The notes under the pieces: model-generated | What the model was told of the DNA's origin: nothing | The model's database searches: none | What the model saw: the letters and a program-made list of their open reading frames with translations, nothing else | Made by a program: the position numbers and the translations under genes | Part shown: piece after piece, positions 3,003 to 29,493 of the stretch | Position numbering within the stretch: position 1 is the stretch's first letter | How the letters are laid out: each line of letters begins with the position of its first letter | Source of the DNA: Halolamina rubra | GTDB lineage: Archaea; Halobacteriota; Halobacteria; Halobacteriales; Haloferacaceae | DNA length: 64,000 nucleotides | NCBI RefSeq assembly: GCF_000739555.1 | Contig: NZ_BBJN01000005.1 | Span: 1 to 64,000, forward strand | Direction: 5' to 3'

Positions 3003-4808
3003 TCAGTTCGGCAGTTCGTCCCGCAGCCGCCGTAGTTCGAACACCGCGTCGTTCTGTGCGCGCTGGAGCTCGACCTGGAGGAACCGGTACTCGTCGTCGC
3101 TCTCGTCGTACACGTCGAACAGCGACGTGTTCTCGAAGCGCGGGTACGGCGGCCGGTTGTAGGCGGGGTCCTGCTCGAACTGGCCGTCGCTGACGAAGTT
3201 GAGCCGCGTCAGCGTCCGCGAGAGCGTCTTGATCGTCTCGTTCGCGACCTCGTGATCGATCTCGCCGGCCTCGACGGCGTCGTAGAACGCGTCGACGGCG
3301 TCGGCGACCGAGTCGAGCGCCTCGAGCGTCGGGCCGAAGTCGAACGCCTCCCCCGCGAGGTCGTCGTAGTCGGCGACGATCGAGCGGTGGCGCTCGACGT
3401 TCCGGGCGTGGTCGTGGGGCAGCACGTCGGCACGGAGCAGGCGCGAGACCAGCACCGCGTACATCTGGATGTCCCTGATCAGTTCGGGCTTGCCGGCCTT
3501 GTCGATCGTGTCGGTGCTGAGGTGCCAGGCGTCGGCGTTGCCGCCGCAGCCGCCGACGGTGTGCCAGCGCATCGTCTCCCGCACGTCGGCAGGGATGTTC
3601 GAGGAGAGCGTGAACGCGCCCGAGAGCCCGAGGTTGTTGAACGAGTAGTCGCCGGCCCGCCGGGGCCGGTTCTCGCTGTAGGGCGCCCCCGTGGCGTCCT
3701 CGATCGCCCCGGCGACGACGCCGTGCATCTCCGGCATCCAGCAGGCCATGTCGACGTACTCGGTGGAGCCCTTCGCGCCCGGGCTGTCCATGTCGACGTG
3801 GGCGACGCAGTCCTCGACGAGATCCATCGCGAACTCGTCGGCGTACCAGGTCGAACCGGCGTAGCGACCCGTCGAGTGGCCGGGCCACCAGCACACGCGG
3901 AGATCGCGCTGGAGATCGTCGCTGTGTGCGTCGAACACGCGGGCGAGTTCCAGCAGGCCGGCGTCGCCCGTCGCGTTGTCGGCGATGCCGACCGCCCAGG
4001 AGTCGTAGTGGCCGTGGAGGAGGACGAAGTCGTCGTCGTCGGGGTCGGCGTCGCCGGCCTCGATCCGCGCCTCGACGATGGGGCAGGCCATCCAGTCGGT
4101 CGTCGTGTCCGTCTCCAGGGTGACTTCGTGGTACTCGTCCGCGTCGGCGTACGACCGCAGTTCGTCGCCGTCGGGCCGGGTGACGTTCGCGATCGGGAGG
4201 TCGGGGATCCGCTCCTTCTCGTCGTAGGGGGGCGCGCCACCCCAGACGGAGGTGGCGATCCCGTCGTGCGGTTCGCGCTCGTTCTCGTGGATCGCGATCA
4301 CGCCGGCGGCGCCTTTCTCCTCGAGCACCCGGGTCGCCCGGATCGAGAGGCTCCCGGCCGCGGTGAGCGCGATCTTCCCGGAGAGGTCGCCCACGTCGGC
4401 GTAGGGTCGCGTGACGTTCACCGCGTGGTATTGGCTCCCGTCGTCGGCGCCCACGTCGCTCTGCTCGGCCTCGCCGACGTAGACGAGCTCGCCGGTCACC
4501 GCCCGCGCCGCCGAGAACGCGACGGTTTTCACCGGCCCCGGCTCGAAGACGCCGTCGTCGACGGTGATCGACGCGCTGTGGGGCTGACTGATGTAGAGCT
4601 CCGGGTCGTAGCGCTCGTAGTCGACGCCGAATTCGTCGAGGCGGCCGGTGAGGTACTCGGCCGCGCGGCGCTCGTCTTCGGTGCCCGAGACGCGCTCGAG
4701 ATCGGCGAACTCCTCGAGGAGGGCCCAGGGTTCGTCGATCGACACCGCGTCGGTGAGCCGTGATTCGTACTGGTCCAGCGACTTCTCGCCGGTGCGCTGC
4801 TGAGACAT
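3003..4808 (-). CDS. M28-like metallopeptidase with PA domain (paralog 2)
   Basis: A 601-residue protein closely similar to the one at 8-1783 over its whole length. It has the same N-terminal helix region with SRLTDAVSIDEPW, a PA-like insert, LLHGHYDSW, DNATG, WWPGHSTGRYAGSTWY, DMDSPGAK and WHLSTDTIDKAG. The EE pair of canonical M28 enzymes is again HS. No signal peptide or membrane segment is visible, so a cytoplasmic role on imported peptides is likely. A TATA-like box lies about 26 bases upstream of the start. The gene is transcribed alone, convergent with the enolase-superfamily gene. Confidence 0.9.
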   Translation of the reverse strand: MSQQRTGEKSLDQYESRLTDAVSIDEPWALLEEFADLERVSGTEDERRAAEYLTGRLDEFGVDYERYDPELYISQPHSASITVDDGVFEPGPVKTVAFSAARAVTGELVYVGEAEQSDVGADDGSQYHAVNVTRPYADVGDLSGKIALTAAGSLSIRATRVLEEKGAAGVIAIHENEREPHDGIATSVWGGAPPYDEKERIPDLPIANVTRPDGDELRSYADADEYHEVTLETDTTTDWMACPIVEARIEAGDADPDDDDFVLLHGHYDSWAVGIADNATGDAGLLELARVFDAHSDDLQRDLRVCWWPGHSTGRYAGSTWYADEFAMDLVEDCVAHVDMDSPGAKGSTEYVDMACWMPEMHGVVAGAIEDATGAPYSENRPRRAGDYSFNNLGLSGAFTLSSNIPADVRETMRWHTVGGCGGNADAWHLSTDTIDKAGKPELIRDIQMYAVLVSRLLRADVLPHDHARNVERHRSIVADYDDLAGEAFDFGPTLEALDSVADAVDAFYDAVEAGEIDHEVANETIKTLSRTLTRLNFVSDGQFEQDPAYNRPPYPRFENTSLFDVYDESDDEYRFLQVELQRAQNDAVFELRRLRDELPN

Positions 4809-4873: not shown

Positions 4874-5908
4874 TCAGGCCCCGGGCGTCACGACGACCTT
4901 GCCGAACACCTCGCGGTTCTCGATCGCGCGGTGGCCCTCGGCGACACGGTCGAGCGGCAGCACGCGGTCGATCACCGGGGCCACCTCCCCGCGGGCGATC
5001 AGCCGGCCCGCGGCGCGGAAGTCCCGACGGTTCCCCATCGGCGTCCCGAGGATGCGCCGGTGGCGCTGGTACACCGAGCGGATGTCGATGTCCGGATCCG
5101 CGCCGGAGGTGGCGCCGCAGATCACCATGCGCCCGCCGGTCGCGAGGCTGTCGATGGACCGCTGCCACGTCTCCTGGCCAACGTGGTCGGCGACGAGGTC
5201 CACCCCGCGGCCGTCGGTGAGTTCGACCACGCGCTCGTCGAACGGTTCCTGGGTGTAGTCGATCACGTCCTCGGCCCACTCGGCCGCCTGCTCGGCTTTC
5301 CAGTCGGCCGAGGTCGTCGCGTACACCTCGGCGCCGATCCGGTCGGCCAGCTGGAGCGCGGCGTGGCCGACGCCGCCGCTGGCGCCGAGGATCAGCGCCG
5401 ACTCGCTCGGCTGCAGCCCCCCGCCGCTGACGAGCATCCGCCACGCCGTCGTGAACGAGGAGGGCCACGCGGCCGCCGTCTCCATGTCGACGCCCGCGGG
5501 CACGGCTTCGAGGTTGTCGGCGGGCACCGCGACGTACTCCGCCAGCCCGCCGGGGAAGTCGCTCCCGAACTTCCGGTCGTGGGGACACATGGTCTGCTCG
5601 CCGCGCTCGCAGAACTCACACTCCCCGCAGCTCACGTGGTGGTAGACGTTGACGCGGTCGCCCGGCGTCCAGTCGTCGACGCCGTCGCCGACCGCGTCGA
5701 CGACGCCCGCCATCTCCGTGCCCGGGCGTTTCGGGAACTCGTCCTCGATCTCGGGGTGACCCGTCCGGGCGAACACGTCCGCGTGCTGGAGCGCACACGC
5801 CTGGACCGCGAGCCTGACCTCCCCCGGCCCGGGCTCGGGCCGCGGTACGTCGCGGATCTCCAGTACGTCCTCCGGCGCACCACTGTCGACGATGTGGACT
5901 GCTCGCAT
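4874..5908 (-). CDS. Zinc-type alcohol dehydrogenase / quinone oxidoreductase (MDR family)
   Basis: A 344-residue medium-chain dehydrogenase, probably a cytosolic NAD(P)-dependent oxidoreductase. The structural-zinc cluster CGECEFCERGEQTMC is intact near residue 95 and the nucleotide-binding glycine motif GASGGVG is near residue 165. At the catalytic zinc site the usual GHE is GTE, so one ligand differs from classical alcohol dehydrogenases and the substrate is uncertain. I chose the ATG at 5908 (MRAVHIVDSG) rather than upstream codons because it begins the family's first strand and a TATA-like sequence lies about 30 bases ahead. It is divergent from the first peptide transporter operon. Confidence 0.85.
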   Translation of the reverse strand: MRAVHIVDSGAPEDVLEIRDVPRPEPGPGEVRLAVQACALQHADVFARTGHPEIEDEFPKRPGTEMAGVVDAVGDGVDDWTPGDRVNVYHHVSCGECEFCERGEQTMCPHDRKFGSDFPGGLAEYVAVPADNLEAVPAGVDMETAAAWPSSFTTAWRMLVSGGGLQPSESALILGASGGVGHAALQLADRIGAEVYATTSADWKAEQAAEWAEDVIDYTQEPFDERVVELTDGRGVDLVADHVGQETWQRSIDSLATGGRMVICGATSGADPDIDIRSVYQRHRRILGTPMGNRRDFRAAGRLIARGEVAPVIDRVLPLDRVAEGHRAIENREVFGKVVVTPGA

Positions 5909-6015
5909 ATCCCGTCCGTCGGCGCCCACCACCATATCTCTATGCGCCCCTCCGGGATTAGTTCGGCCGCGTTCGCGGCTGACTGTACTGTCCGGTATGT
6001 GACCACAACCCAAGG

Positions 6016-6024
6016 TACTATATA
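6016..6024 (+). promoter_or_regulatory. TATA box of the first peptide ABC transporter operon
   Basis: TACTATATA ends 30 bases before the ATG at 6054. This fixes that ATG, and not the in-frame ATG at 6027, as the likely start. Confidence 0.65.
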
Positions 6025-6053
6025 CCATGACATGTAGGTCCAAACGTCAGCCC

Positions 6054-7871
6054 ATGACCGACCAGCCACCCGACAACCCGTTACAGAGGCGCAACTTCCT
6101 GAAGAAGACCGGCGCGGTGGGCGCGACGGTGACGCTCGCATCGTTCGCCGGCTGTGCAGGCGACGGCGGCGGCGGCGGCGACGACACCGACACCGAGACC
6201 GTCGCGGGCGGCGGCGGCGACGACACCGTCCAGATGGAGGGGTTCCAGGTCCCCTCCGAGAACGTCGTCCCCCAGAGCGAACTGGACGAGGCGCAGGCGA
6301 TCCCGGAGCTCACCCTGATCGTCAACCCGCCGGACGCACAGCCCGACGACCACGAGACGTCGATGTTCGTCAGCGAGGAGATCGCCAAGCTCGGCCTCGA
6401 CACGACCGTCGAGACGATGACGTGGCCCTCCCAGTCCTCGACGGTCTGGGACGGCACCGACTGGGACATGACGTTCTGGCAGATGGTCGGACGGCCGTCC
6501 CGGCTCGACCCCGACGAGTTCTCGGTCCAGATGGGCCACTCGAGCTTCCAGCAGGGGTACAACTACTACTTCTGGGAGGACGAGGAGTACGACGAGAAGG
6601 TGATGGCCCAGCGCGAGGAGCTGGACCAGGCCGCCCGCGAGGAGCTGATCAAGGAGTGCCAGCAGATCTTCCACGACCGGGGGCCGAGCACGTTCCTCAT
6701 GTACCCGGACAAGACGATCCCGTGGAACAGCGAGCGCTGGGACGGCGTCGTCGAGCTCAACGGGATGGGCGCGGTGAACATGCTGACGTTCTCGAACATC
6801 GAGCCCACCGGCGACCGGACGGAGCTCAACATCGCCTACGATCAGGAGCTGCAGGCGCTCAACCCGTTCGACCAGTCCGGCGAGATCGACATGATCCAGC
6901 ACCGGATGATCTGGGACCGCCTCGCGTGGCCCAACGAGTCCGCGCTGCCCGAGCCCCGGCTGGCGGAGGAGTTCAACTGGAAGGACGACACGACGCTCGA
7001 AGTCCCGATCAAGGAAGGACACACGTTCCACGACGGCGAGCCCGTCACCGCCGAGGACGTGAAGTACAGCTACAACATCCACCGCGACTACTCGACGTAC
7101 TTCTCGGGGCCGGTCGAGCCGGTCAACGAGATCACGGTCGTCGACGACCACACCGTCGAGTTCAGCTTCGACTACCACTTCGCGCCGTTCCCGATGGCGG
7201 CGATGGGCCGCATCGCGATCATCCCCAAGCACAAGTGGACCGACATCATCGAGAACCGGATGGACGTCGAGAACCCGATGCTGTACCAGGAGGAGGAGCC
7301 GCTCGGCTCCGGGCCGATGGAGTTCGTCCACTGGCGCTCCTCGGAGGAGGTCCGCCTGGAGCGGTTCGACGACCACTTCGACCCGATCGCCTACGAGGCG
7401 CGCAACTCCCGGATCATCCCCAGCGTCCAGACGATGCTGACCCAGCTCGAGAACGGCACTCTGGACATGCTGGCGAACTACCGCGGCGACAAGGACGTGC
7501 TCCGCGACCGCGTCGACGCCAACGACAGCCTCTCGATGGCGGCGACGACGACGGTCGGGTTCAAGCAGATCTCCTACAACAACGACCGGCCACCGTTCCA
7601 CATCGACGGGTTCCGCCGCGCGATGAACCACCGGTTCGACAAGGAGACGATCGTCAACGACATCTACGGCGGCTGGGGGTCGATCGCCCCGAACACCCTG
7701 GTGTCCTCGGCGCTGGAGAGCTGGCACAACGACGAGCTCGAGCGCTACGAGTTCAGCCTGCAGGCCGCCGCCAACGAGCTCATCGAGGCCGGCTTCGTCT
7801 GGGACGAGAGCGACGGCATGCTGTACATGCCCGCCGACAACACCGAGATCGACGGGGACGACAAACCCTAG
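6054..7871 (+). CDS. Peptide/oligopeptide ABC transporter binding lipoprotein, apparently circularly permuted
   Basis: A 605-residue family-5 solute-binding protein. The twin arginines are at 12-13, followed by a hydrophobic stretch and a lipobox-like FAGC with Cys34, then a Gly/Asp tether; this suggests Tat export and lipid anchoring at the outer membrane face. Residues about 85-245 (LTLIVNPP..., WDMTFWQMV, NYYFWEDEEYDE, PSTFLMYPD) match the C-terminal third of normal family-5 proteins. Residues about 257-605 match the N-terminal two thirds (LNIAYDQELQALNPF, HDGEPVTAEDVKYSYN), and the chain ends at ELIEAGFVWDESDG, exactly where the C-terminal third would normally begin. The other binding protein at 18656-20326 has the normal order. 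It is the first gene of the operon with the permeases and ATPases downstream. Confidence 0.85.
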   Translation: MTDQPPDNPLQRRNFLKKTGAVGATVTLASFAGCAGDGGGGGDDTDTETVAGGGGDDTVQMEGFQVPSENVVPQSELDEAQAIPELTLIVNPPDAQPDDHETSMFVSEEIAKLGLDTTVETMTWPSQSSTVWDGTDWDMTFWQMVGRPSRLDPDEFSVQMGHSSFQQGYNYYFWEDEEYDEKVMAQREELDQAAREELIKECQQIFHDRGPSTFLMYPDKTIPWNSERWDGVVELNGMGAVNMLTFSNIEPTGDRTELNIAYDQELQALNPFDQSGEIDMIQHRMIWDRLAWPNESALPEPRLAEEFNWKDDTTLEVPIKEGHTFHDGEPVTAEDVKYSYNIHRDYSTYFSGPVEPVNEITVVDDHTVEFSFDYHFAPFPMAAMGRIAIIPKHKWTDIIENRMDVENPMLYQEEEPLGSGPMEFVHWRSSEEVRLERFDDHFDPIAYEARNSRIIPSVQTMLTQLENGTLDMLANYRGDKDVLRDRVDANDSLSMAATTTVGFKQISYNNDRPPFHIDGFRRAMNHRFDKETIVNDIYGGWGSIAPNTLVSSALESWHNDELERYEFSLQAAANELIEAGFVWDESDGMLYMPADNTEIDGDDKP

Positions 7872-7889: not shown

Positions 7890-8867
7890 ATGGGACTAAA
7901 AGAATTCGTCACGAGACGTATCATCCAGATCGTCGTGCTCTACTTCGCGATAGCGACGATGCTGTTTTTCCTGTTTCGGGCGGCGCCCGGCGATCCGCTC
8001 GCGGCGTACATCGGCACGGGGTTCACCCAGGAACAGGCGGCCCAGATACGGGCGACGTTCGGGCTCGACCAGCCGATCCACGTCCAGTACTGGAAGTACA
8101 TGACCAGCCTGGTGACGTTCAACTTCGGCCTCTCCTACATCACGGGCGACCCCGTCTGGGGGATCATCCAGGACCGGATCTGGAACACGCTCGTGCTGAT
8201 GGGCACCTCCGTCATCCTGGCGTACCTGATCGGCGTCCCCTTCGGCGCGTACCTCGCGTGGAACCGCGGGACGAAACGGGAGCGCTTCGGCGTCGTGTTC
8301 GCGCTGATCTCCCGCAGCGCGCCGGTGTTCTGGACCGGGCTGCTCGGCATCTGGATCTTCTCGTTCAAGCTCGGCTGGCTCCCGGCGGGGTCGATGTCCC
8401 AGCCCGGGGTGACCTACTCCAGCAAGCTGGCGCAGTTCACCAGCCCGAGCTTCCTCCGACACCTGATCCTGCCGGCGCTCGTCCAGGCCTTTTACTTCTA
8501 CAGCCTGCCCGCGCTGCTGATGCGCAACAGCATGCTCGAAGTGATGAACGAGGACTTCGTCGACTTCGCGGAGCTGAAGGGGATCAGCGACTTCTCGGTG
8601 ATGCTGAAACACGCCGCCCGGAACGCGCTGCTCCCGATCGTGACGGCGTTTGCCGTCGCCGCGGGGTTCGCGGTCGGCGGCAGCGTCGTCCTCGAAACCG
8701 TGTTCGCGTGGCCGGGGCTTGGTCGGGAGATGGTCCGGGCGGTGATCGCGAACGACTACCCGGTGGCACAGGCGACGTTCCTGATCCTCGCCGGGCTGGT
8801 ACTGGTAGCGAACTTCCTCGCGGACTTGGCGTACGGCTACCTCGATCCGCGGATCACCTACGACTGA
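7890..8867 (+). CDS. Peptide ABC transporter permease, DppB/OppB type
   Basis: A 325-residue inner-membrane permease with the normal length and layout of DppB. The first transmembrane helix is near the N-terminus (IIQIVVLYFAIATMLFFLF), a long external loop follows, then about five more helices. The cytoplasmic EAA-type loop that docks the ATPase is seen in FAELKGISDFSVMLKHAARNA. It starts 18 bases after the binding protein stop and ends 3 bases before the second permease, so it is cotranscribed. It should form a heterodimeric channel with the 8871-9806 product. Confidence 0.92.
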   Translation: MGLKEFVTRRIIQIVVLYFAIATMLFFLFRAAPGDPLAAYIGTGFTQEQAAQIRATFGLDQPIHVQYWKYMTSLVTFNFGLSYITGDPVWGIIQDRIWNTLVLMGTSVILAYLIGVPFGAYLAWNRGTKRERFGVVFALISRSAPVFWTGLLGIWIFSFKLGWLPAGSMSQPGVTYSSKLAQFTSPSFLRHLILPALVQAFYFYSLPALLMRNSMLEVMNEDFVDFAELKGISDFSVMLKHAARNALLPIVTAFAVAAGFAVGGSVVLETVFAWPGLGREMVRAVIANDYPVAQATFLILAGLVLVANFLADLAYGYLDPRITYD

Positions 8868-8870
8868 CAC

Positions 8871-9806
8871 ATGAGTGACCAGAACAAAACGGCCCTCGAC
8901 TCGGAGTCGAACGTCGACGCCCTCGACACGGAACTCTCGACGTGGCGCGAACGCCAGGCGGACGCGTGGCGTCGACGGCTCGCCTTCCTCAAGCGCGAAC
9001 CGATGGGGCTCGCGGGCATCCTCATCCTGCTCGCGATCGTCCTCGTCGCGATCTTCGCGCCGGTGATCGCGCCGTACGAGCCGACCGAGACGGACTACGG
9101 CAACTCGCTGGCCCCGCCCAGCGCCGAGCACCCGCTCGGCACCGACAGCGCGGGCCGGGACATCTTCAGTCAGCTCGTCTTCGGCGCCCGCCCGGCGCTG
9201 CAGATCGGCCTGCTCAGCGCGATCAGCGTCGCGTTCGTCGGCATGAACGTGGGGTTGGTCGCGGGCTACTACGGCGGCTACGTCGACGACGCGCTGATGC
9301 GGCTGGTGGACTTCGCGTACGGCATCCCGTTCACCCCGTTCATCATCGTGCTCGTGGCGCTGTGGGAGCCCTCGAAGTGGACGATCGTCGGCGCGATCGC
9401 GCTGCTGCTGTGGCGACAGACCGCCCGCGTCGTCCGCTCGCACGTGCTGAACCTCAAGGAGAAGCCGTTCGTCAAGAGCGCCCGAACCGTCGGCGCCAGC
9501 GACCGACGCATCATCTACAGACACATCGCGCCCAACGTCCTCCCGCTGGTGTTCCTCTACGGGAGCTTCGCGATCGCGTGGGCGATCCTCACCGAGGCGG
9601 CGATCAGCTACCTCGGGTTCGGCGATCCCACCGCGGTGACGTGGGGGCAGATGCTGCAGTCCGCCCAGCAGTCACAGGCGCTGGCTCGGGACGCCTGGTG
9701 GTGGTTCACGATGCCCGGCATCGCGATCATGCTGACGGTCATCTCGGCGTTCCTGATCGGCCGCGGCTACGAAGAGCAACTGAACCCGGAACTCCAAGAG
9801 CCATGA
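8871..9806 (+). CDS. Peptide ABC transporter permease, DppC/OppC type
   Basis: A 311-residue permease. A charged cytoplasmic N-terminus of about 45 residues precedes the first helix ([21 protein letters not shown]), typical of DppC. The sequence [16 protein letters not shown], characteristic of the family, follows. The EAA loop is [18 protein letters not shown]. About six membrane segments are visible. Its stop overlaps the ATG of the next gene in an ATGA arrangement, implying translational coupling with the ATPase. Confidence 0.92.
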
Positions 9807-10813
9807 CACTACTCGAAGTCAACGACTTGCACGTGACGTACGCGGGCGATCCGGCCGTCGAAGCCGTGCGTGGCGTCTCGTTCACCCTCGAGGAGGGCGA
9901 GACGCTGGGCATCGTGGGCGAGTCCGGCTGCGGGAAGACGACGCTCGCCCAGGCGGTCATGGGCGCGCTCCCGGACAACGGCGAGATCACCGGCGGCGAG
10001 ATCATCTTCGACGGGCAGGACATCACCCACCTCTCGAACCGCCAGCGCCGCGAGATCCGCTGGGAGCGGATGTCGATGATCAGCCAGAGCGCGATGAACA
10101 GTCTCGACCCAGTCTACCGGGTGAAAGACCAGATCCGGGAGGCGATCCAGGAGCACCGGGACGTCTCCGACGCGGAGGCGTACGAGCGCTCCCGGGAGCT
10201 GATGGAGCTGGTCGGGCTCGACCCCGACCGCGTCGAGGACTACCCCCACCAGCTCTCCGGCGGGATGCGCCAGCGCGTGATCATCGCCATGAGCCTCGCG
10301 CTCGACCCGGACCTGATCATCGCCGACGAGCCGACGACGGCGCTGGACGTGATCATCCAGGAGCAGATCCTCTACCGGATCAAGGAGCTCCAGCGCGAGC
10401 TCGGCAACTCGATGGTGATGGTCACCCACGACATCAGCGTCGTCGCCGAGACGTGTGACAGCATGGTGGTGATGTACGGCGGCGAGCTGATGGAGGCCGG
10501 CAACGTCGACGAGATCTTCAACAACGCCCACCACCCGTACACGCTCGGGCTCCAGAACGCGTTCCCGAGCGTCGAGGGCGAGAAGCGCGACCTCACCAGC
10601 ATCCCGGGGTCGCCGCCAGACCTCTCGGAGCCGCTCGAGGGCTGTCCGTTCGCGTCCCGGTGTCCGTTCGCGGCGCCGGAGTGCGAGGAGAAAGTGCCAG
10701 TACGGGAGCCGGTCGATGGCCACCGCGTCAGGTGCCACGAGCCGGTGCCGTTCGAACAGATTCGTGACCGATCCGGCGAGGACGAGACATGGCTATCACA
10801 GAACAAAGTCTGA
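9803..10813 (+). CDS. Peptide ABC transporter ATPase, DppD/OppD type
   Basis: A 336-residue cytoplasmic ATPase. Walker A is GESGCGKT (39-46), the Q-loop region is [10 protein letters not shown], the signature is LSGGMRQR and Walker B is [12 protein letters not shown]. The C-terminal oligopeptide-type extension with Cys pairs ([15 protein letters not shown]) is present; in this family it may carry a metal cluster. The ATG at 9803 overlaps the permease stop by four bases and begins the conserved LLEVNDLHV strand; longer upstream reading frame is discarded. The end overlaps the next ATPase gene by 25 bases. Confidence 0.92.
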
Positions 10814-11820
10814 ACTGGGACTACGACGGTCCCATCATGGAGGTAGCGGGCCTGGAGAAGCATTTCCCACAGAGCACCGGGATCGTCCACCAGCTGATCG
10901 GCGGCGACACCAAACACGTCAAAGCCGTCGACGGCGTCGACATGGCGATCGAGAGCGGCGAGACGATGGGGCTGGTCGGCGAGTCCGGCTGCGGGAAGTC
11001 GACGCTGGGCGAGGTGCTCATCGGGCTGCAGGAGCCCACCGGCGGCTCGATCAAGTTCCTCGGGACGGAGCTCTCCTCGATGTCCGACGCCCAGCACAAG
11101 GAGTTCCGGCGCAACGTCCAGATGATCTTCCAGGACCCCTACGAGTCGCTGAACCCGCGGTTCTCCGTCGAGCAGTGGATCCGCGAGCCGCTCGAGGTCC
11201 ACGACATCGACAACCAGGACGAGCGCATCTACGAGGCGCTCGAGCGGGCCGAGCTCACGCCGCCGGAGAACTACATCGGCGAGCACCCACACGAGCTCTC
11301 CGGCGGGGAACGCCAGCGCGTCTCCATCGCCCGCGCGCTCGTCCTCGAGCCGAAGTTCATCGTCGCCGACGAGCCGGTCTCGATGCTCGACGTGTCCGTG
11401 CGGGCGAGCATCCTCAACCTGCTCCGGAAACTCGTCGACGAGCTCGACATGGGCGCGCTGTACATCTCCCACGACCTCTCGCTGATCCGGCAGATGTGCG
11501 ACCGGACGAGCGTGATGTACCTCGGGAAGGTCGTCGAGCGGGGGCCGACGGAGCGGCTGATCAAGGGGCCGAAACACCCCTACGCCCGCGCCCTGCTCGA
11601 CGCCGTGCCGGTGCCGAACCCGGAGCACAACATCTCCGAACCGCAGCTGGAGGGGGAGCCGCCGGACCCCGTCGACCTGCCGGAGGGCTGTAACTTCCGG
11701 CCGCGCTGTCCGTTCGCGGCCGAGGAGTGTTTCGAGGAGCCGGGGCTCGACGCCTACGAGACGGCGGACGGCGAGCACGCGGCCGCGTGCTGGCGGGTAG
11801 AAACGGTCGACGAGATGTGA
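10789..11820 (+). CDS. Peptide ABC transporter ATPase, DppF/OppF type
   Basis: A 343-residue ATPase that pairs with the preceding one. Walker A is GESGCGKS (64-71), the signature is LSGGERQR and Walker B is FIVADEPVSMLD. The last is slightly unusual: DEPVSMLDVS replaces the common [11 protein letters not shown] DppF-type N-terminal insert precedes Walker A (HFPQSTGIVHQLIGG), and the C-terminal CPFAAEEC segment is present. It is the last gene of the five-gene operon, and a GC hairpin follows its stop at once. Confidence 0.92.
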   Translation: MAITEQSLNWDYDGPIMEVAGLEKHFPQSTGIVHQLIGGDTKHVKAVDGVDMAIESGETMGLVGESGCGKSTLGEVLIGLQEPTGGSIKFLGTELSSMSDAQHKEFRRNVQMIFQDPYESLNPRFSVEQWIREPLEVHDIDNQDERIYEALERAELTPPENYIGEHPHELSGGERQRVSIARALVLEPKFIVADEPVSMLDVSVRASILNLLRKLVDELDMGALYISHDLSLIRQMCDRTSVMYLGKVVERGPTERLIKGPKHPYARALLDAVPVPNPEHNISEPQLEGEPPDPVDLPEGCNFRPRCPFAAEECFEEPGLDAYETADGEHAAACWRVETVDEM

Positions 11821-13536: not shown

Positions 13537-14256
13537 GTGACAGAGATTGTCTACCTCGTCCCGGGGCGGGGACTGGACGACGCGGAGCTCGATCGCCGCG
13601 AGGCGATCGCCAACGAACTGACCGACGCCAGCGTCACCGTCGTCGACGCCGACGACGGCCCGCTCTCGATCGAGAGCGAGGTCGAACACGAGTGGTGCGT
13701 GCGGAGCCTGCTCGGCCTGCTCAGGGAGCACGAGGCCGACTACGACGGGTTCGTCATCGGCTGCTTCGGCGACCCCGGGCTCGCGGCGGCCCGGGAGTTC
13801 GTCGACAAGCCCGTCGTCGGCCCCGCGTCGTCGACGTTCCACACCGCGGCCCAGCTCTCCGACCGGTTCTCCTGTCTCACGATCCGGTCGACGCCGGCGT
13901 CGAAGCGCCGGCAGATCCTCGCCGACGGGCTCGGCGAACACCTGGCGAGCGTTCGCGTCGTCGAGCAGGGCGTGCTCGACGTGGATCACGAGTCCGAGGA
14001 GATCGTCCAGAAGATGGTACGGGCGGCCGAGGCGGCGGTCGCGGAGGACGGCGCCGAGTCGGTCGTGCCGGGCTGCATGAGCCTCGCGTTCATGCAGGTC
14101 CACGACCGCGTCGCCGACGACCTCGGCGTGCCGTTCCTCGACCCCGTCCGGATCAGCCTCGGGACGGCGGCGATGTGGGCCGAGCAAGGGCTGACCCCGA
14201 GTCGGGTCACCTACCCGGCGTTCTCGGACGAACGGGAGGCGAGCCTGTTCGAGTGA
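13537..14256 (+). CDS. Asp/Glu/hydantoin racemase-family protein (1)
   Basis: A 239-residue cytoplasmic enzyme of the cofactor-independent two-cysteine racemase superfamily. The paired catalytic cysteines are visible: Cys76 in IGCFGDPG and Cys180 in PGCMSL. I chose the GTG at 13537 because it begins the first conserved strand (TEIVYLVPG) and a TTTAT box lies about 28 bases upstream. The best match in layout is hydantoin/Asp-Glu racemase; the substrate is unknown. It is clearly paralogous to the gene at 26816-27574, and both sit in the same peptide-use island. Confidence 0.85.
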
Positions 14257-18655: not shown

Positions 18656-20326
18656 TTACTGATCCATCCAGACGTTCGAGCCTTCGGTGTCGGCGTTGGT
18701 GTTGTTCCGGTCGCCGTAGAGGTAGGGGTTGTACGTCGAGACGGGGTGGGTTTTCAGCCCCTGGACGTAGTTCTTCACGCCCATCGAGACGGAGGTGTAG
18801 TACAGCGGGAGGTGGACCCGGTCCTCGACGAACAGGTTGATCGCCTCGATGTACATCTCGCGGCGCTGCTCGCGCTCGGGGGTGACCCGGGCCTCGGCCA
18901 GCAGCTCGTTGAACCGGTCGTTGTCGTAGTACTGCCCCTGGAACGCGCCGTCGATGTGGAGCAGTTCGTAGAGGAAGCGGTCGGGCTCGGGGGCGCGCGT
19001 CCAGCCGAGCAGGTAGATGTTCACCTGGCTGGCGTCGCCGGAGTCGAACCGGTCGAGCATCGTCGCGAAGTCGAGGTACTGCACCTGCGCGTCGTAGCCC
19101 GCCTCCTGGATCCCGTTCGCGATGGAGACGGCGACCTGTCGGCGCTTCTCCGTGGAGGAGACGATGATGTTGCACGTCCAGTCGTCGGGCACGCCGGCGC
19201 TCTCGAACAGCTCCTTGGCGCGGTCGATGTCCTTGTCGGCCCAGCTGTTCTCCCACTCGTCGAGCGGCATGTCCCACGCCTCGGCGACGGAGGCGGGGAC
19301 CGGGCTGTAGATCCGGCCGCCGCCGGGCTTGATGTACTGATCGATGGCCTGGTCGAGGTCGACACAGTGGTCGATCGCCAGTCGCACGTCGCGCTTGGCA
19401 CACTCGCCCTCCTTCTGGTTGAACGCGGCGAACTGGTAGCTCAGCGAGGGCCCCTCGATCACGTCGGCGTCCGACATGTTCTGGACGGTGCTCCAGAACT
19501 GCGGCGGGATGCGGTTGATCACGTCCTGCTCGCCGGTCTGGAGCTGGGTCACGCGGTTGGTCGGCTCGTTGATCGGCGTGAACGTCACCTCGTCGAGGTG
19601 GGGGCTGCCGCTGCCCCAGTAGTCGTCCCAGCCGGCCATCGTGACGTGGTCGTTCTCCTCGAACTCCGTCACCTCGAACGGGCCGGAGCCGACGAACGTG
19701 TCGATCCCGAACCCTTCGGGATCCTCCTCGCGGACGCTCTTCGGCGCCACCGGGTGCGCGATCGCGTGGAGGATCGGCACGTACGGTTCGGTCAGCGTGA
19801 AGTGGGCGGTCTGGTCGTCCTCGACTTCGATGCTCTCGACGATGCTGAAGTTGGAGGCGTAGCTGGTCTGCTCCTCGACGGTCGCCTCGAACGTGTACTT
19901 CACGTCCTCCGCGGTGACGGGGTCGCCGTTGTGGAACGTCGCGTCGGCGTCGAGGTTGAGCGTGAACTCGTTCCCCTCGAGGGTGGGGATCTCCTCGGCC
20001 AGGATCGGCACGAGGTTGGTGTTCCGGTCGTAGCCGAGCACCGGGGAGTACACCAGGTTCTTCAGCATGATGGAGTAGTTCCCGCCGTTGTTGTTGACGG
20101 GGTCGAGCTCCACCGGCGAGGAGGTCTGTGCGAAGTTCAGCGAGCCGCCCCGGGTGGGCGTCGACGTCTCGCCGTCGGTGTCGTCGTCCCCGGACGAGCC
20201 GGAGTCCGTGTCGGTCGGGGTCGCCGTGCCGTCGCCGCCGGTACAGCCGGCAAGTCCGATCAGGCCCGCGGACGCGGCGGCCTGGAGGAACTTCCGGCGG
20301 TTGTCTTGCCAATCATTCTCAGGCAT
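18656..20326 (-). CDS. Peptide/oligopeptide ABC transporter binding lipoprotein (normal domain order)
   Basis: A 556-residue family-5 solute-binding protein. NRRKFLQ near residue 10 is a twin-arginine motif, LAGC supplies a lipobox-like Cys, and a Thr/Asp/Gly tether follows. The N-lobe (ELDPVNNNGG, LNLDADATFHNGDPVTAEDVKYTF) comes first and the C-lobe (YDAQVQYLDFATMLDRF, YYDNDRFNELLAEA, VHLPLYY) last, the usual order. I take the ATG at 20326 because a TATA box lies about 25-31 bases upstream and the TTG at 20338 adds only four residues. It defines the substrate of the second transporter; the substrate is unknown beyond peptide or related. Confidence 0.9.
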   Translation of the reverse strand: MPENDWQDNRRKFLQAAASAGLIGLAGCTGGDGTATPTDTDSGSSGDDDTDGETSTPTRGGSLNFAQTSSPVELDPVNNNGGNYSIMLKNLVYSPVLGYDRNTNLVPILAEEIPTLEGNEFTLNLDADATFHNGDPVTAEDVKYTFEATVEEQTSYASNFSIVESIEVEDDQTAHFTLTEPYVPILHAIAHPVAPKSVREEDPEGFGIDTFVGSGPFEVTEFEENDHVTMAGWDDYWGSGSPHLDEVTFTPINEPTNRVTQLQTGEQDVINRIPPQFWSTVQNMSDADVIEGPSLSYQFAAFNQKEGECAKRDVRLAIDHCVDLDQAIDQYIKPGGGRIYSPVPASVAEAWDMPLDEWENSWADKDIDRAKELFESAGVPDDWTCNIIVSSTEKRRQVAVSIANGIQEAGYDAQVQYLDFATMLDRFDSGDASQVNIYLLGWTRAPEPDRFLYELLHIDGAFQGQYYDNDRFNELLAEARVTPEREQRREMYIEAINLFVEDRVHLPLYYTSVSMGVKNYVQGLKTHPVSTYNPYLYGDRNNTNADTEGSNVWMDQ

Positions 20327-20349
20327 AGATGTACCCAACCCCCAATCTC

Positions 20350-20609: not shown

Positions 20610-22340
20610 ATGAGTCAGCGACTCTACGCGGACGGGAAGCCATCGCTGTCGGGCGTCGACGCCGCCATCGTCGACGCCGTCGGCGCCGACGAGCCCTGGC
20701 GGCTCGTCGAACGGTTCGCCGAGCTCGAGCGCGTCTCGGGCACCGACGACGAGCGCGCGGCGGCCGAGTACCTCACGGAGCGCCTCGATGGGTTCGGCGT
20801 CGACCACGAGCTGTTCGAGCCGGAACTGTTCCTGAGCACGCCCCACGGCGGGAGCGTCGAGGCTGGGGACGGCTGGGGGGCAGCGTCGGCGAAGACCGTC
20901 TCGTTCTCCGCCGACGGCACCGCCGAGGGCGAGCTCGTCTACGTGGAGAACGACGACGAGATGGAGTCGATCGAGGCGATGCTCTCGGTCTCGCTCGCCG
21001 GTCTCCCGGAGGACCTCTCGGGGAAAGTGGTGATGAGCGAGTCGATCATCCCGATCAGCGCGATCGAGGAGCTCGCCGACCGGGGCGCCGAGGCGTTCGT
21101 CGGCATCCACCCCCACGAGCGCGAGCCCCACGAGGGGATCGTCACGCCCGTCTGGGGCGGCGCGCCCCCGTACGACGAGCGGGACCGCATCCCGGAGCTG
21201 CTCGTCGCGAACGTCTCCGCGAGCGACGGCCGCGAACTCCGGGAGCGGGCCGCCGCGGGCGCCGAGGTCACCGTTTCGGCGGAGACGACGACCGAGTGGC
21301 AGACGGCGCCGCTGGTGCTGGCGCGGATCGAGGGGGAGGCCGCCCCCGAGACCGACGAGTTCGTGCTGGCTCACGGCCACCTCGACTCCTGGCACGTCGG
21401 CGTCACCGACAACGCGACCGGCGACGCCGCGCTGCTGGAACTGGCCCGCGTGCTGGACGAGCACAGCGACGAGCTCCGGCGGGACGTGTGGGTCGCCTGG
21501 TGGCCGGGGCACTCGACGGGGCGCTACGCCGGCTCGACGTGGTTCACCGACGAGTTCGCGACCGAACTCGCCGAGCGCTGCGTGGCGCACGTGAACGTCG
21601 ACTCGCCGGGCGTCGCCGACGCGACGGCGTACGACGAGCGCGTGAAGTGGATGGCCGCGGTCGAGGGCGTCGCCGCCGGCACCATCGCGGACGTGACCGG
21701 CAAGGAGACCGAAACGTTCCGGCCGGCGCGTGCGGGCGACTACTCCTTCAACAACCTCGGGATCCCGGGGATGTCGCTGCAGTCGAGCATCCCCGCGTCC
21801 GTCCGCGAGGAGCGCGGCTACCACCCCGTCGGCGGCTCCGGCGGCCACGCCGACGCGTGGCACCTCACGACCGACACGATCGAGAAGGCCGATCCCGACG
21901 TGCTGGAACGCGACACCGAGGTGTACACGCTCGCGACGGCCCGGCTGAGTCGGGCCGACCGCCCGGCCGACCCGGTTCGGGCGATCGACCGGCTCGCGTC
22001 GGCGGCCGCCGAGTACGACGAAGCTAGCGCGTTCGACCTCGGGCCGGTGCGCGACGAGCTCGACGCGCTGCGGGAGGCGACGACGGCGTTGCTCGACGAC
22101 GCCGACGGCTACCCCGCGGCGGCCGACAGGCTCGTCAAGGCGCTCACGCGGCTGCAGTTCGTCACCGAGGGGCAGTTCGAGCAGGACCCCGCCGAGAGCC
22201 GGGCGCCGTTCCCGCGGCTCGCCCCCGTCGAGCGACTCCCCGACCTGGACGGCGACGACGCGCGCTTCCTCGAACTCCAACTGCAGCGTGAACGCAACGG
22301 TGTCGTGGCGGAACTCCGAGAACTCCGCCGGTCGCTCTAG
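20610..22340 (+). CDS. M28-like metallopeptidase with PA domain (paralog 3)
   Basis: A 576-residue relative of the genes at 8, 3003 and 27574. It keeps LAHGHLDSWHVG, DNATGDAALLELARVL, WWPGHSTGRYAGSTWF, VNVDSPG, RAGDYSFNNLG and WHLTTDTIEKA. The Glu-Glu pair is absent, as in the others. The insert with DDEMESIEAMLSVSLAGLPEDL differs from paralogs 1 and 2, so it is not a recent copy. An AGCTATTAC box lies about 25-30 bases before the ATG. It is divergent from the second transporter operon and may share regulation with it. Confidence 0.9.
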   Translation: MSQRLYADGKPSLSGVDAAIVDAVGADEPWRLVERFAELERVSGTDDERAAAEYLTERLDGFGVDHELFEPELFLSTPHGGSVEAGDGWGAASAKTVSFSADGTAEGELVYVENDDEMESIEAMLSVSLAGLPEDLSGKVVMSESIIPISAIEELADRGAEAFVGIHPHEREPHEGIVTPVWGGAPPYDERDRIPELLVANVSASDGRELRERAAAGAEVTVSAETTTEWQTAPLVLARIEGEAAPETDEFVLAHGHLDSWHVGVTDNATGDAALLELARVLDEHSDELRRDVWVAWWPGHSTGRYAGSTWFTDEFATELAERCVAHVNVDSPGVADATAYDERVKWMAAVEGVAAGTIADVTGKETETFRPARAGDYSFNNLGIPGMSLQSSIPASVREERGYHPVGGSGGHADAWHLTTDTIEKADPDVLERDTEVYTLATARLSRADRPADPVRAIDRLASAAAEYDEASAFDLGPVRDELDALREATTALLDDADGYPAAADRLVKALTRLQFVTEGQFEQDPAESRAPFPRLAPVERLPDLDGDDARFLELQLQRERNGVVAELRELRRSL

Positions 22341-23381: not shown

Positions 23382-25121
23382 TCAGGCCCGCCGGTCGAGG
23401 AACGCCTCGACGGTATCGGCCGCCTCCTCGACGTTGTGCGCGAGCTTCGAGACGCCGCGGACGGCTTTCGTCCGGGCGAAGCCGGCTCGGGGGCCAGTTT
23501 TGTCCGGGAGCGTCTCGGCGACCCGGAGGTACGGGAGCAGTTCGTGGGGCAGCGCCGGGTCGTGCTCGTGCGCCGGCGACTCCATGTACAGCGCCGGGAT
23601 GAGCAGGTTGCCGAGCCGGACCTGTACGTCCTCGACGCCCGTCGCGACGCCGTCGTCGTCGACGCCCTCGGCCACTGCGGCGAACGAGTCCAGCGCGGCG
23701 TCGAGGCGGTCGAGCCGGTCGTACACCGGCGAGAAGTCGACCTCGCCCGCGGCCGCGTCGTCGATCTGCTCGACGAGCGCGCGGATCTCCGCGGCCGTCT
23801 CCCGGTAGTCGTGGGGGAGCACCGGCGAGTTCGAGAGCCGCGAGACGATGGCCGTGTACAGCCGGGCCTCCTCGGCCATCAGGTCGAAGTCGATCTTGTC
23901 CCGGGTGTCCTCGGGGGTGTGCCACCACCAGCCGCCGCCGACGGGGCCGGCGTCCTCGTGGTCGGCGCTGAACCGCGCGCCCGAGAGCAGCGAGGAGAGC
24001 CCGGCACCCCAGAACGACTGGTCGGAGTTCCGGCCCGGCCGGCTGCCGCCGCCGAGCAGGCCGCCCTCGTCCCGCGCCGTCTCCATCGGGAGCGGGCCGT
24101 CCGCGAGCACGTCGAGATGTTCGTCGCCGACCTCGGCCATGTGCTGGGCCCAGAGGTGGTCGGCGCCGTCGAGGCCGTTCAGGTCGATGTGGATGTAGGC
24201 GACGCCGTTCTCGCGGAGGTCGAGCCAGTTCCGGTCGGCGTAGCGCGCGCTCCCGGCGTAGCGACCCATCGAGTGGCCGGGCCAGAACCCGACGACGATC
24301 CCGCGTTTCGGCGGGTGCTCGGCGAACACGCGGGCCAGCTCCATCGACGTGGCGACGGCCGAGGCGTTGTCGGTGACGCCCTCGTGCCAGGAGTCGATGT
24401 GGTTGCCGACGACGGTGTAGCGGTCGCTCTCGGTGCCCTCGATCCGCGCGACGGGACACGGCAGTTCCCGCTGCTCGGTCCGGGCCTGCGTCTCGACGGT
24501 CACCGCCACGTCGTCGCCCGCGAGTCGCTCCGCCAGCCACGCGCCGTCGCGCTGGTGGATCTCCGCGACTGGGAGGTCCGGGAGCTCGTCCACGTCGTCC
24601 ACCGACGGCGAGCCCCAGATGGGGGAGGCGATCATCTCGTGCAGTTGGCCCTCGGTCGGCGACTGGAACACCGCGGCCTGCGCGCCGGCCTCGTCGATGG
24701 CCCGCACGGCGCCGGGGGTCGGGAGCCCCTCCGTGAACACGATCTTCCCGGAGAGGTCGGGCAGGTCGGTCGCGCTGTGCCCGACCGCGTCGACGGCGAC
24801 GAGCTCGCCGCTGACGCCGCCGGGGGGCGTGCTCGCGCTGAACGCGGTGGTGATCGCGTCCTCGAACACCTCCCGGACAGGGCTCGTGACCGTCACCGTC
24901 GCGGACACCGGGACGCTCGTGTACGCCTCGACCGTCTGTAGTTCTACGTCGACGCCGTCGGCGCCGAGTTCGTCGACGATGTACTCCGCCGCCTCCCACT
25001 GGTCGTCCGTCCCGGGATACCGCCGCAGGTCGGCCAGCGCGTCGATGTGGGCCTCCAGCGCGCTCCGGTCGATCTCGCCGACGAGTCCGTCTTCCGTCGT
25101 TCTGTCGACTGTGTCAATCAC
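23382..25121 (-). CDS. M28-like metallopeptidase with PA domain (divergent paralog 4)
   Basis: About 579 residues. It is the most divergent of the five paralogs, but keeps the order: PA-like region, NHIDSWHEGVTDNAS, FWPGHSMGRYAGSARY, IHIDLNGLDG and a terminal WWWHTPEDTRDK. The metal-binding His/Asp positions are retained, and Glu-Glu is again replaced by His-Ser. The GTG at 25121 is preferred over the GTG at 25127 because the TATA-like TTATTG on the minus strand is then about 25 bases away. Its C-terminal half differs from the others (about 130 residues with GVEDVQVRLGNLL), which may mean a different substrate. Confidence 0.87.
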   Translation of the reverse strand: MIDTVDRTTEDGLVGEIDRSALEAHIDALADLRRYPGTDDQWEAAEYIVDELGADGVDVELQTVEAYTSVPVSATVTVTSPVREVFEDAITTAFSASTPPGGVSGELVAVDAVGHSATDLPDLSGKIVFTEGLPTPGAVRAIDEAGAQAAVFQSPTEGQLHEMIASPIWGSPSVDDVDELPDLPVAEIHQRDGAWLAERLAGDDVAVTVETQARTEQRELPCPVARIEGTESDRYTVVGNHIDSWHEGVTDNASAVATSMELARVFAEHPPKRGIVVGFWPGHSMGRYAGSARYADRNWLDLRENGVAYIHIDLNGLDGADHLWAQHMAEVGDEHLDVLADGPLPMETARDEGGLLGGGSRPGRNSDQSFWGAGLSSLLSGARFSADHEDAGPVGGGWWWHTPEDTRDKIDFDLMAEEARLYTAIVSRLSNSPVLPHDYRETAAEIRALVEQIDDAAAGEVDFSPVYDRLDRLDAALDSFAAVAEGVDDDGVATGVEDVQVRLGNLLIPALYMESPAHEHDPALPHELLPYLRVAETLPDKTGPRAGFARTKAVRGVSKLAHNVEEAADTVEAFLDRRA

Positions 25122-25211
25122 ACCCACAACGAGGGAACTATCGCAATAAGCGTGACGGGGGTGGCGGTCGTGAACCGGGAGAAAACGCGCCGTGAACGTC
25201 GATCGCGCCGC

Positions 25212-26815: not shown

Positions 26816-27574
26816 TCAGTCGTCGTCGCTCGCGGCGACGCCCTCCCCCAACAGGTCGCCGAGCTTCTCGAACTTCGGCTCGGGGTACGTTTCGGGGCTC
26901 TGGGCGACGCCGTGGCGGGCCCAGGTAGCCGCCGTCTCCAGCGCGAGGCTCGCCGGGTCGAGGAACGGCACGCCGACGCGCTCCTCGATCTCGTCGTGGC
27001 GCTGGGCGAAGGAGAGGCTCATACAGCCCGGGAACAGCGCCTCGGCGCCGTCCTCCTCGACCGCGGCTTTCCCCTCCCGGACCATGCGCTCGACGAGGTC
27101 GTCGTCGCCGTGGTCGATCGACTCGACGGGGGCGTCGACGGACCGGACGCTCACGCAGCGCTCCGAGAGGTGGTGCTCGTGGGCCTGCTCGTGGCTCATC
27201 GGGATCGTCTCGTCGAGGATGGTGAGCCAGGTGAACCGGTCGGCGACCATCGCGGCCGTGTGGATCGTCGTCTCCGCGGGGCCGACGACGGGGATGTCGA
27301 GCAGTTCACGCAGCCCCCGGATCCCGGGGTCGCCGAAGCAGCCGATGACGAGCGCGTCGTACTCCGACTGGATCCGGTGGGCGGTCTTCATCGAGCCGAC
27401 GGTGCACCAGAGCTCCTCGACGGCGCTCTCGATGCTCGTGGGGCCCGGGCCCTCGGCCTCGACGACAGTCACCTCGACGTGGTCGGGCGTGAGCTCGTTC
27501 GCCACGCGCTCGCGGCGCTCCTTCTCGTCGCTCGGGAGGCCGACGCCGGGGACGAGGTAGCAGACGGCGACCAT
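26816..27574 (-). CDS. Asp/Glu/hydantoin racemase-family protein (2)
   Basis: A 252-residue paralog of the gene at 13537-14256. The paired cysteines are Cys79 in IGCFGDPG and Cys184 in PGCMSLSF, so both acid-base residues of the superfamily are kept. Its start overlaps the stop of the M28-like gene upstream by one base (TGATG), a strong sign that racemase and peptidase are made together. A shared substrate route, peptide hydrolysis followed by racemisation of the freed residue, is inference. Confidence 0.87.
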   Translation of the reverse strand: MVAVCYLVPGVGLPSDEKERRERVANELTPDHVEVTVVEAEGPGPTSIESAVEELWCTVGSMKTAHRIQSEYDALVIGCFGDPGIRGLRELLDIPVVGPAETTIHTAAMVADRFTWLTILDETIPMSHEQAHEHHLSERCVSVRSVDAPVESIDHGDDDLVERMVREGKAAVEEDGAEALFPGCMSLSFAQRHDEIEERVGVPFLDPASLALETAATWARHGVAQSPETYPEPKFEKLGDLLGEGVAASDDD

Positions 27575-29367
27575 CAGGCACCACCCCCCGTGGCGTCCGC
27601 GACGATGGAACGCGCCCGCTTCAGTTCGCCGACGACCGTGTTCTGCTCACGTTTGAGCTGGGTCTCGACGAACTTCGCCTCGTCGCCGTCGACGATTTCG
27701 AACTTCCGGGCGACCGAGAAGCGCGGGAACGGCTCCCGGCTCGTCGCGGGGTCCTGCTCGAACTGGCCGCGCTCGACCAGGTAGAGCCGGGTGAGCACGC
27801 GCGAGAGCGATGTGATCGCGTCGTTCGCGGTCGCGGCGTCGATCTCGCCGTCCCGCGCGGCCCGCTGGAACGACGCGATCTCGTCCTCGAGCGTGTCGAG
27901 GCGGTCCAGCGTCGGCGAGAAGTCGAAGCGATCGCCCGCGGCGTCGTCGTAGCGCTCGACCGCCTCACGGAGCTTCGCGGAGTTGCGGGCGTGGTCGAAC
28001 GGCAGCACGTCCGCGTTCAGCACGCGGGCGACCGAGACGACGTACAGCCGGATGTCCCGCAGGAGCTCGTCCTTCCCGGCCTTGTCGAGCGTGTCGGTCG
28101 AGACGTGCCAGGCGTCGGAGTTGCCGCCGCAGCCGCCGACGCCGTGGTAGCCGCGCTCCTCGCGGATCTCCGCGGGGATGTTCGAGGAGAGCATGAAGAA
28201 CCCGGTGATGCCGAGGTTGTCGAAGGAGTAGTCGCCCGCGCGGAACGGGAAGTGCTCCTCGTACGGCGCGCCGGTCACGTCGTCGATGGCGTCGCCGACG
28301 AGTTCGTGGGCCTCCGGGGTCCAGCAGGTCATGTCCGTGTACTCGGTCGCGTCCTTCGCACCGGGGCTGTCCATGTTCACCTGCGCGACGCAGTGCTCGG
28401 CCAGCTCCCCCGCGAACTGATCGGCGTACCACGTCGACCCGGCGTAGCGCCCCGTCGAGTGCCCCGGCCACCAGGCGACCCGGAGGTTGCGCTGCAGGTC
28501 CTCGCTGTGCTGGTCGAACACCCGAGCGGCCTCCAACAGACCGGCGTCGCCGGTGGCGTTGTCGGTGATCCCGACGTACCAGGAGTCGTAGTGACCGTGC
28601 AGCAGGAGGAAGTCGTCGTTCTGGGGGTCGGCCTCGCCCTCGATCTCGGCGACGACGACGGGGCACTCCATCCAGTCGGTCGTGAGGTCGGTCGAGAGCT
28701 CGAGCTCCAGTCCCTCGTCGCTCTCGGCCCACTCCATCAGCGTCTCGCCGTCGGGCTCGTTGACGTTCGCGATCGGCACGTCCGGGATCTTCTCGCGTTC
28801 GTCGTACCGGGGCGCGCCGCCCCAGATCGGGGTCGCGATCCCGTTGTGGGGCTCGCGGTCGTGTTTGTGGATCGCGATGACGCCGATGGCGCCCTTCTCC
28901 GAGAGCTTGCTCACCGCGCGGATCGAGAGGCTGCCGGCTTTCGTGAGTGCGATCTTCCCGGAGAGATCGCCCACGTCGTGGTACGGCTCCCGCGGGTCGT
29001 CGTCGTCGGCGAGCAGGTCGCCGCCGGCGCTGCCGACGTACTCGACGGGGCCGGAGACCGTCGTCGACGCCGAGAACGAGACGGTCTTGACGGGGCCGGG
29101 CTCGAACTCCTTGGTGAGCGTCTCGATCGTCGCGCCGTGTGGTTGGCTGATGTACAGTTCGGGCTCGTGGCGCTCGTAGGCGACGCCGTTGGCGTCGAGG
29201 CGGTCGCTGACGTAGTCCGCGGCCGCGGCCTCGTCGGCGCTGCCGGAGACGCGGTTCAGTTCGGCGAACTCCTCCAACAGCTCCCACGGCTCGTCGAGCG
29301 ATACTTCGTCGTGCAGGCGCCGCTCGAGACCGTCGAGGGCGTCCCTGTCGGTTGTCGGCTGGCTCAT
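27574..29367 (-). CDS. M28-like metallopeptidase with PA domain (paralog 5)
   Basis: A 597-residue protein, the closest relative of the gene at 8-1783. Landmarks are LLHGHYDSWYVGITDNATGDAG, WWPGHSTGRYAGSTWYAD, VNMDSPGAKD, FRAGDYSFDNLG and WHVSTDTLDKAG. I chose the ATG at 29367 (MSQPTTDRD), matching the N-termini of the paralogs; the in-frame ATG at 29409 lies in the promoter. A TATA box lies 34-40 bases upstream, implying a leader of about ten bases. It forms a two-gene operon with the racemase at 26816. Confidence 0.9.
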   Translation of the reverse strand: MSQPTTDRDALDGLERRLHDEVSLDEPWELLEEFAELNRVSGSADEAAAADYVSDRLDANGVAYERHEPELYISQPHGATIETLTKEFEPGPVKTVSFSASTTVSGPVEYVGSAGGDLLADDDDPREPYHDVGDLSGKIALTKAGSLSIRAVSKLSEKGAIGVIAIHKHDREPHNGIATPIWGGAPRYDEREKIPDVPIANVNEPDGETLMEWAESDEGLELELSTDLTTDWMECPVVVAEIEGEADPQNDDFLLLHGHYDSWYVGITDNATGDAGLLEAARVFDQHSEDLQRNLRVAWWPGHSTGRYAGSTWYADQFAGELAEHCVAQVNMDSPGAKDATEYTDMTCWTPEAHELVGDAIDDVTGAPYEEHFPFRAGDYSFDNLGITGFFMLSSNIPAEIREERGYHGVGGCGGNSDAWHVSTDTLDKAGKDELLRDIRLYVVSVARVLNADVLPFDHARNSAKLREAVERYDDAAGDRFDFSPTLDRLDTLEDEIASFQRAARDGEIDAATANDAITSLSRVLTRLYLVERGQFEQDPATSREPFPRFSVARKFEIVDGDEAKFVETQLKREQNTVVGELKRARSIVADATGGGA

Positions 29368-29400
29368 GTGGCTCGCGTTCGCGGGAACGGACGGAGCCAG

Positions 29401-29407
29401 TATAAAC
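29401..29407 (-). promoter_or_regulatory. TATA box of the peptidase-racemase operon
   Basis: TTTATA on the minus strand, 34-40 bases before the ATG at 29367. Confidence 0.55.
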
Positions 29408-29493
29408 ATTGGTAACCGTCAACACGGAGGGAGGCGGCCGAGACTCTCGACGCCAGAGCGCGGCGAAACGGGGGATGGGTTAACGGCGCCGCT

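Follow-up and report, generated by a model that had tools for sequence, protein, structure and literature searches.

The window, that is, the whole stretch of 64,000 nucleotides analysed here, exhibits an ORF (6054-7871, forward strand) encoding a 605-aa protein, P0001, which we interpret as a natural circular permutant of the OppA/DppA family that goes back to one ancestral event. We put the probability of this reading at about 95%. The order of the segments, the homology of both modules, their conservation, the grouping of the permuted proteins in one clade and the gene context are direct observations; a single two-lobed fold, docking and ligand binding are only predicted. From its N-terminus, P0001 runs through a Tat signal with lipobox and a linker into the segment that is canonically the C-terminal third of these proteins (C-module), continues with the canonical N-terminal two thirds (N-module), and stops after a tail of 15 residues (Table 1).

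P0001 scores 170.7 bits against the family profile PF00496, far above the gathering score of 32.4. In a six-frame search the profile falls into two pieces in swapped order, nucleotides 6948-7823 matching profile positions 2-287 and nucleotides 6309-6545 matching positions 288-364, so that the pieces abut at profile position 287/288 without a gap. The same arrangement is obtained with Bacillus subtilis AppA (1xoc) in a phmmer search of PDB sequences (whole-sequence E-value = 4.5e-31), where residues 285-590 of P0001 correspond to AppA chain positions 51-353 and residues 101-222 to positions 375-493. HMMs trained on normal-order haloarchaeal proteins only place the C-module on the N-terminal side (E-value = 2e-21) and the N-module behind it (E-value = 4e-52), and with the same HMMs both modules are likewise swapped in the homologs aligned with P0001, each being present in a single copy. 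P0001 is thus homologous to SBP_bac_5 proteins but does not follow their canonical N-to-C segment order, and most of what the Pfam and NCBIfam models cover in it is the N-module. The tail beyond the N-module measures 12-44 residues in 143 ORFs of the P0001 order, versus 157-253 residues in 41 normal-order ORFs. Nine bacterial proteins, one of them E. coli DppA, come out in normal order under the same HMM procedure.

A circular permutation of this ORF had been proposed in a first-pass annotation, whose start, stop and quoted motifs match the sequence, and the swapped Pfam and AppA pieces, the module HMMs and the homologs all bear the proposal out. Its placement of the C-terminal third at residues of about 85-245 was correct as to identity, but the limits are better set at about 83-252. 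It was also right about the swapped order in ending the N-module at ELIEAGFVWDESDG, but about 17 more residues of the chain follow this motif, forming one strand of the cut hairpin. The normal-order homolog that it had put forward as an internal control, in the same window, is indeed colinear with the profile (Table 1).

Table 1. Features of P0001 and of its surroundings in the window.
Feature	Position	Strand	Evidence
Tat signal and lipobox (R12 R13 ... A32 G33 C34)	6054..6155	+	26-homolog alignment; Pfam TAT_signal
Low-complexity linker (residues 35-54) and short ordered extension (residues 55-82, predicted strands)	6156..6299	+	AlphaFold pLDDT
C-module, residues 83-252, canonical C-terminal third	6300..6809	+	PF00496 288-364; AppA 375-493; HMM; fragment fold
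Fusion joint of the old C- and N-termini, about residues 248-258	6795..6827	+	Alignment columns short across homologs
N-module, residues 257-590, canonical N-terminal two thirds	6822..7823	+	PF00496 2-287; AppA 51-353; HMM E-value 4e-52
New C-terminus: 15 residues and stop after the N-module	7824..7871	+	Tail-length comparison
Permease, DppB-like	7890..8867	+	ORF
Permease, DppC-like	8871..9806	+	ORF
ABC ATPase, DppD-like	9803..10813	+	Walker A and signature motifs
ABC ATPase, DppF-like	10789..11820	+	Walker A and signature motifs
Divergent zinc-type ADH/quinone reductase	4874..6043	-	PF00107, PF08240
M28 peptidase, divergent side	3003..4808	-	PF04389
Asp/Glu/hydantoin racemase	13537..14256	+	PF01177, E-value 2e-32
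Normal-order family-5 binding protein, internal control	18656..20338	-	PF00496 2-363 colinear; order N-Ca-Cb

The features expected of an exported and anchored protein are present, the Tat motif and the lipobox being invariant among the haloarchaeal homologs: residues R12, R13, G33 and C34 are identical in all 26 aligned sequences, and Pfam TAT_signal matches P0001 with an E-value of 0.0012, slightly under the cut-off.

The cut point can be read from a comparison of near relatives. In the normal-order Meiothermus protein (L201) the hinge into domain III reads '..KVLDSLGYRAGAGGVRVGKDGKRLEFTLLVQSNNPLR', whereas the ANGP1 protein of P0001 order (L142) has the C-terminal end '..ALAKAGYEWDADGRLLYPKGKVETLVGK' and, after the signal, the start '..RRVRELILLTRPQAVDP'. 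These ends and starts locate the cut at the turn of the hairpin at the domain III hinge, and about 10 residues join the old termini. The structure prediction that the first-pass annotation had suggested as a check, run from the 26-row alignment, yields one AlphaFold model (pLDDT 85.4, pTM 0.82) that is confident over both modules, with pLDDT below 50 for residues 1-54 and above 80 from residue 61 on. In a Foldseek search against the PDB, the top matches of this model are only family-5 proteins. Among the matches listed, alignments span at most about 400 columns with TMq of at most 0.45, and none covers the full length. Such short alignments are expected of a permutant, because Foldseek aligns sequentially and a permuted match cannot be scored. 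The lack of a full-length match suggests that solved structures do not yet include a permuted family-5 protein.

The P0001 order is widespread. Three further genomes of the genus carry orthologs with 91-96% identity in which the order is unchanged. Of 292 haloarchaeal genomes sampled, 123 exhibit a match at an E-value of 1e-24 or lower; nearly all the haloarchaeal matches listed are colinear across both modules, and the order is secure in about 100 of the 292 genomes, counted among these matches. A GTDB scan with one genome per species, queried with a closer seven-row alignment, detects 191 proteins related to the alphaproteobacterial form. The 80 of these that were examined, which include many Alphaproteobacteria, Trueperaceae, Armatimonadetes, ANGP1, a Bacillota MAG and a Thermomicrobiales MAG, all match the permuted query over almost its entire length. 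Sorted by module order, 191 distinct family-5 proteins comprise 137 with the P0001 order (hereafter T1), 34 with the normal order, 17 with a second permuted order (T2) and 3 unassigned; this set was collected using permuted queries, and the proportions are not natural frequencies. T1 is found in haloarchaea, Alphaproteobacteria and MAGs from several other bacterial phyla. A search for the same order in other haloarchaea, recommended by the first-pass annotation, was thus rewarded there and in dozens of bacterial genomes as well. Two further T1 genes lie in the source genome itself (G000:C32:6669-8489, reverse strand; G000:C37:4284-5894, forward strand). In total 4 of its 12 family-5 loci are circularly permuted, three T1 and one T2. 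At G000:C37:65008-66098 (reverse strand) a normal-order family-5 gene (L009) is split into two overlapping frames, one with the N-part and one with the rest, and is apparently a frameshifted copy or a sequencing error.

A phylogenetic analysis of the N-module, which is free of order information, unites the 50 T1 proteins sampled as a single clade (98/86), recovered in 98% of bootstraps; in a quick N-module tree, their sisters are the normal-order proteins of Cytobacillus (L198) and Meiothermus (L201), at 98 by SH-aLRT. The C-module tree also has T1 as one clade in 90% of bootstraps, at 93/28 (SH-aLRT 28, moderate) and with many long branches, and gives the same sisters (83/87). These two proteins are the nearest unpermuted relatives of T1 in both trees and differ from it in retaining the canonical order, with the C-terminal third still behind the N-module. 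The congruence of the sisters makes one old permutation of one gene the best reading. As far as sequence trees can tell, the expectation that both T1 modules derive from one ancestral gene is met, with moderate support on the C-module side. No intermediate (tandem fusion or C-N-C arrangement) was found among the classified ORFs.

T2 is independent of T1 and cut elsewhere. It is represented in the source genome at C58:56531-58177 (L168:1447-3147, forward strand) and by 17 other sampled proteins (including L169-L183 and L208). In these, the last 55-60 residues (like 'REQLLQEANQLAHDEAPWIFLNRQYSVYG...') are found on the N-terminal side, and the chain ends after the preceding helix. When an HMM is built from the C-terminal ends of normal-order orthologs, it matches the T2 N-termini with E-values of 4e-18 to 1e-30, and the best normal-order orthologs (L184-L197) exhibit 56-66% identity over the shared part. 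The proteins of permuted order do not form a single clade in the subfamily tree: well supported branches force at least two changes of order, and the bootstraps call for three to five. Such polyphyly involves repeated gain, reversal or recombination. The pairing of the permuted L208 (G130) with the normal-order L222 (G089), at 100/99 support, suggests that T2 arose more than once, or reversed. It is conceivable, although we would not wager on it, that family-5 proteins were permuted repeatedly: an early event would have given rise to a cross-domain clade, and haloarchaeal proteins would have been permuted anew at a second site, either at least twice or with reversals, chain order being nearly freely interchangeable wherever paralogs are numerous and the signal-linker region recombines easily. 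The first-pass annotation underestimated the extent of the phenomenon: the family is old and spans both domains, and a second type of permutation is present in the same genome.

Other origins of the P0001 order can be envisaged. The C-module of a different family-5 gene may have been fused in front of an N-module, leaving a chimera in permuted order. With 12 family-5 loci in the genome such genes are many, recombination between paralogs would yield the same order, and the support for the C-module clade is moderate. Against this, L198 and L201 come out as sisters in both module trees, and in T2 the unpermuted orthologs matched by the displaced end are also those matched by the body; we regard such shuffling as unlikely. 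As the source genome is a draft of 71 contigs, an assembly artefact or a broken gene might also be suspected. This is already refuted, and retains next to no credibility, by a 95% identical ortholog of the same order in G004, a single 2.84-Mb contig, by a 91% identical one in G001, and by the 137 distinct archaeal and bacterial proteins with this order.

The N-terminal module could also be an extra partial copy or an unrelated accessory domain, P0001 working as a truncated, two-thirds binding protein. In favour of this, residues 83-252 folded alone give only a low-confidence model (pLDDT 71), too weak for superposition and used for family identity only. This explanation is nevertheless very improbable, since each module occurs only once in the aligned permuted proteins, the full-length model is confident over both modules, and the C-module sequence is conserved among homologs. 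A domain unrelated to the family is ruled out by the HMMs and by the fragment fold search, in which all 50 of the PDB matches listed are family-5 proteins. The first-pass annotation had named two outcomes that would overturn it, an unrelated fold at residues 85-245 and homologs with a C-terminal third after residue 605. Neither is realized, the first on the evidence of the C-module HMM and, through a weak model, of the fragment fold, the second in view of the swapped order in the homologs.

Under the preferred reading, circular permutation of one gene, P0001 would be a lipid-anchored extracellular solute-binding protein of SBP_bac_5 (cluster C). The old C-terminus, where the chain has completed its return into lobe I, would be tied to the old N-terminus by about 10 residues, and the new termini would have been opened in the beta-hairpin leading from lobe I into domain III. 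The strand 'DGxLxYP' would then be C-terminal, and the strand 'ELTLIV' would lie near the start, behind the anchor. The chain is predicted, and no more than predicted, to fold to one two-lobed protein able to close around its ligand and to dock on a DppBC-type permease of its own; the membrane anchor would have moved to the hinge side of domain III instead of lobe I. We infer a single permutation in the ancestor of the clade now present in haloarchaea and several bacterial phyla, the step at the DNA level being, most simply, duplication or fusion followed by truncation of one gene, with the signal and the low-complexity linker presumably supplying the new start.

P0001 heads a transporter operon, as had been annotated: two permease and two ATPase genes of a DppBCDF-type transporter adjoin it at 7890-11820. 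In 60 bacterial T1 loci with at least 13 kb of sequence, a DppB-like gene is directly downstream in 56 and a DppC-like gene is found in 59. An M28 peptidase gene lies divergently upstream in 46 of these loci; an ADH/quinone reductase (34/60), a racemase (22/60), an IclR regulator (42/60) and a hydantoinase/oxoprolinase B (41/60) also recur. The neighbourhood common to bacteria and archaea supports a functional module moved between domains. The set of transporter, peptidase, racemase and quinone reductase genes was probably exchanged in this way, the direction of the transfer being inferred. Further along the window are an M32 carboxypeptidase and additional M28 peptidases, and creatininase and M20 genes are present at the locus of a haloarchaeal relative. 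Five M28-type genes lie within 30 kb (8-1783, 3003-4808, 23382-25127 and 27574-29409 on the reverse strand, 20610-22340 on the forward strand), four of them confirmed by Pfam and the fifth recognized by resemblance, and surround two Dpp-type transporters. The same region contains racemase, enolase-superfamily, M32, amidase and luciferase-like genes. From its gene content, we read it as a region dedicated to the catabolism of peptides or amides.

Residues D436 and R383 of DppA (precursor numbering), known as contacts of its ligand, lack conserved counterparts in the P0001 group, where GRPxRxDPD is found instead. The bacterial T1 operons (L056-L059, L088-L167) are, as a rule, linked with genes for hydantoinase/oxoprolinase and for an IclR regulator, and these neighbours point to a cargo of cyclic amides or blocked amino acids. 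For P0001 the likely cargo is a short peptide, possibly N-terminally blocked, or an amino-acid amide, a guess from the neighbours and from the lost DppA-type ligand residues, without a binding assay. The lost residues and the gene context together hint, weakly, at a ligand without a free alpha-amino group, for example a pyroglutamyl or carbamoyl compound.

Few uptake receptors are commoner than the family-5 binding proteins. Domain libraries represent only a single segment order, so that permuted members look truncated, with an unassigned N-terminal third, and are easily mislabelled as partial or misassembled. The cross-domain T1 clade and the younger T2, with unpermuted orthologs 56-66% identical, offer a direct test of how natural permutation arises. 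They also allow a study of its effects on anchoring, hinge motion and permease docking, and of its persistence.

We found no description of permuted OppA/DppA-type (family-5) or of haloarchaeal permuted binding proteins in the open-access literature. Permuted binding proteins are known in other clusters; new are the family-5 case, its extension across domains and the second example in the same genome. Glycine-betaine and molybdate-binding proteins are related by circular permutation, but as remote structures with less than 24% identity and outside family 5 (PMC2395249). Closer in kind is Tp0684 (TpMglB-2) of Treponema pallidum, a natural circularly permuted binding protein with a crystal structure, designated "Type Ic / Cluster Bc" (PMC4990184). 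Like P0001 it is membrane-tethered, permuted and conserved in a subclade; unlike P0001 it has a cluster B glucose-binding fold and a different lobe is rearranged (PMC4990184). P0001 does not exhibit such a cluster B sugar-binding fold, the fold matches listed being family-5 (cluster C). With the cluster C proteins OppA, DppA, AppA and NikA it shares homology over its entire length, secretion and anchoring, and the operon plan of two permeases and two ATPases; it differs from them in that its C-terminal third precedes the N-terminal two thirds.
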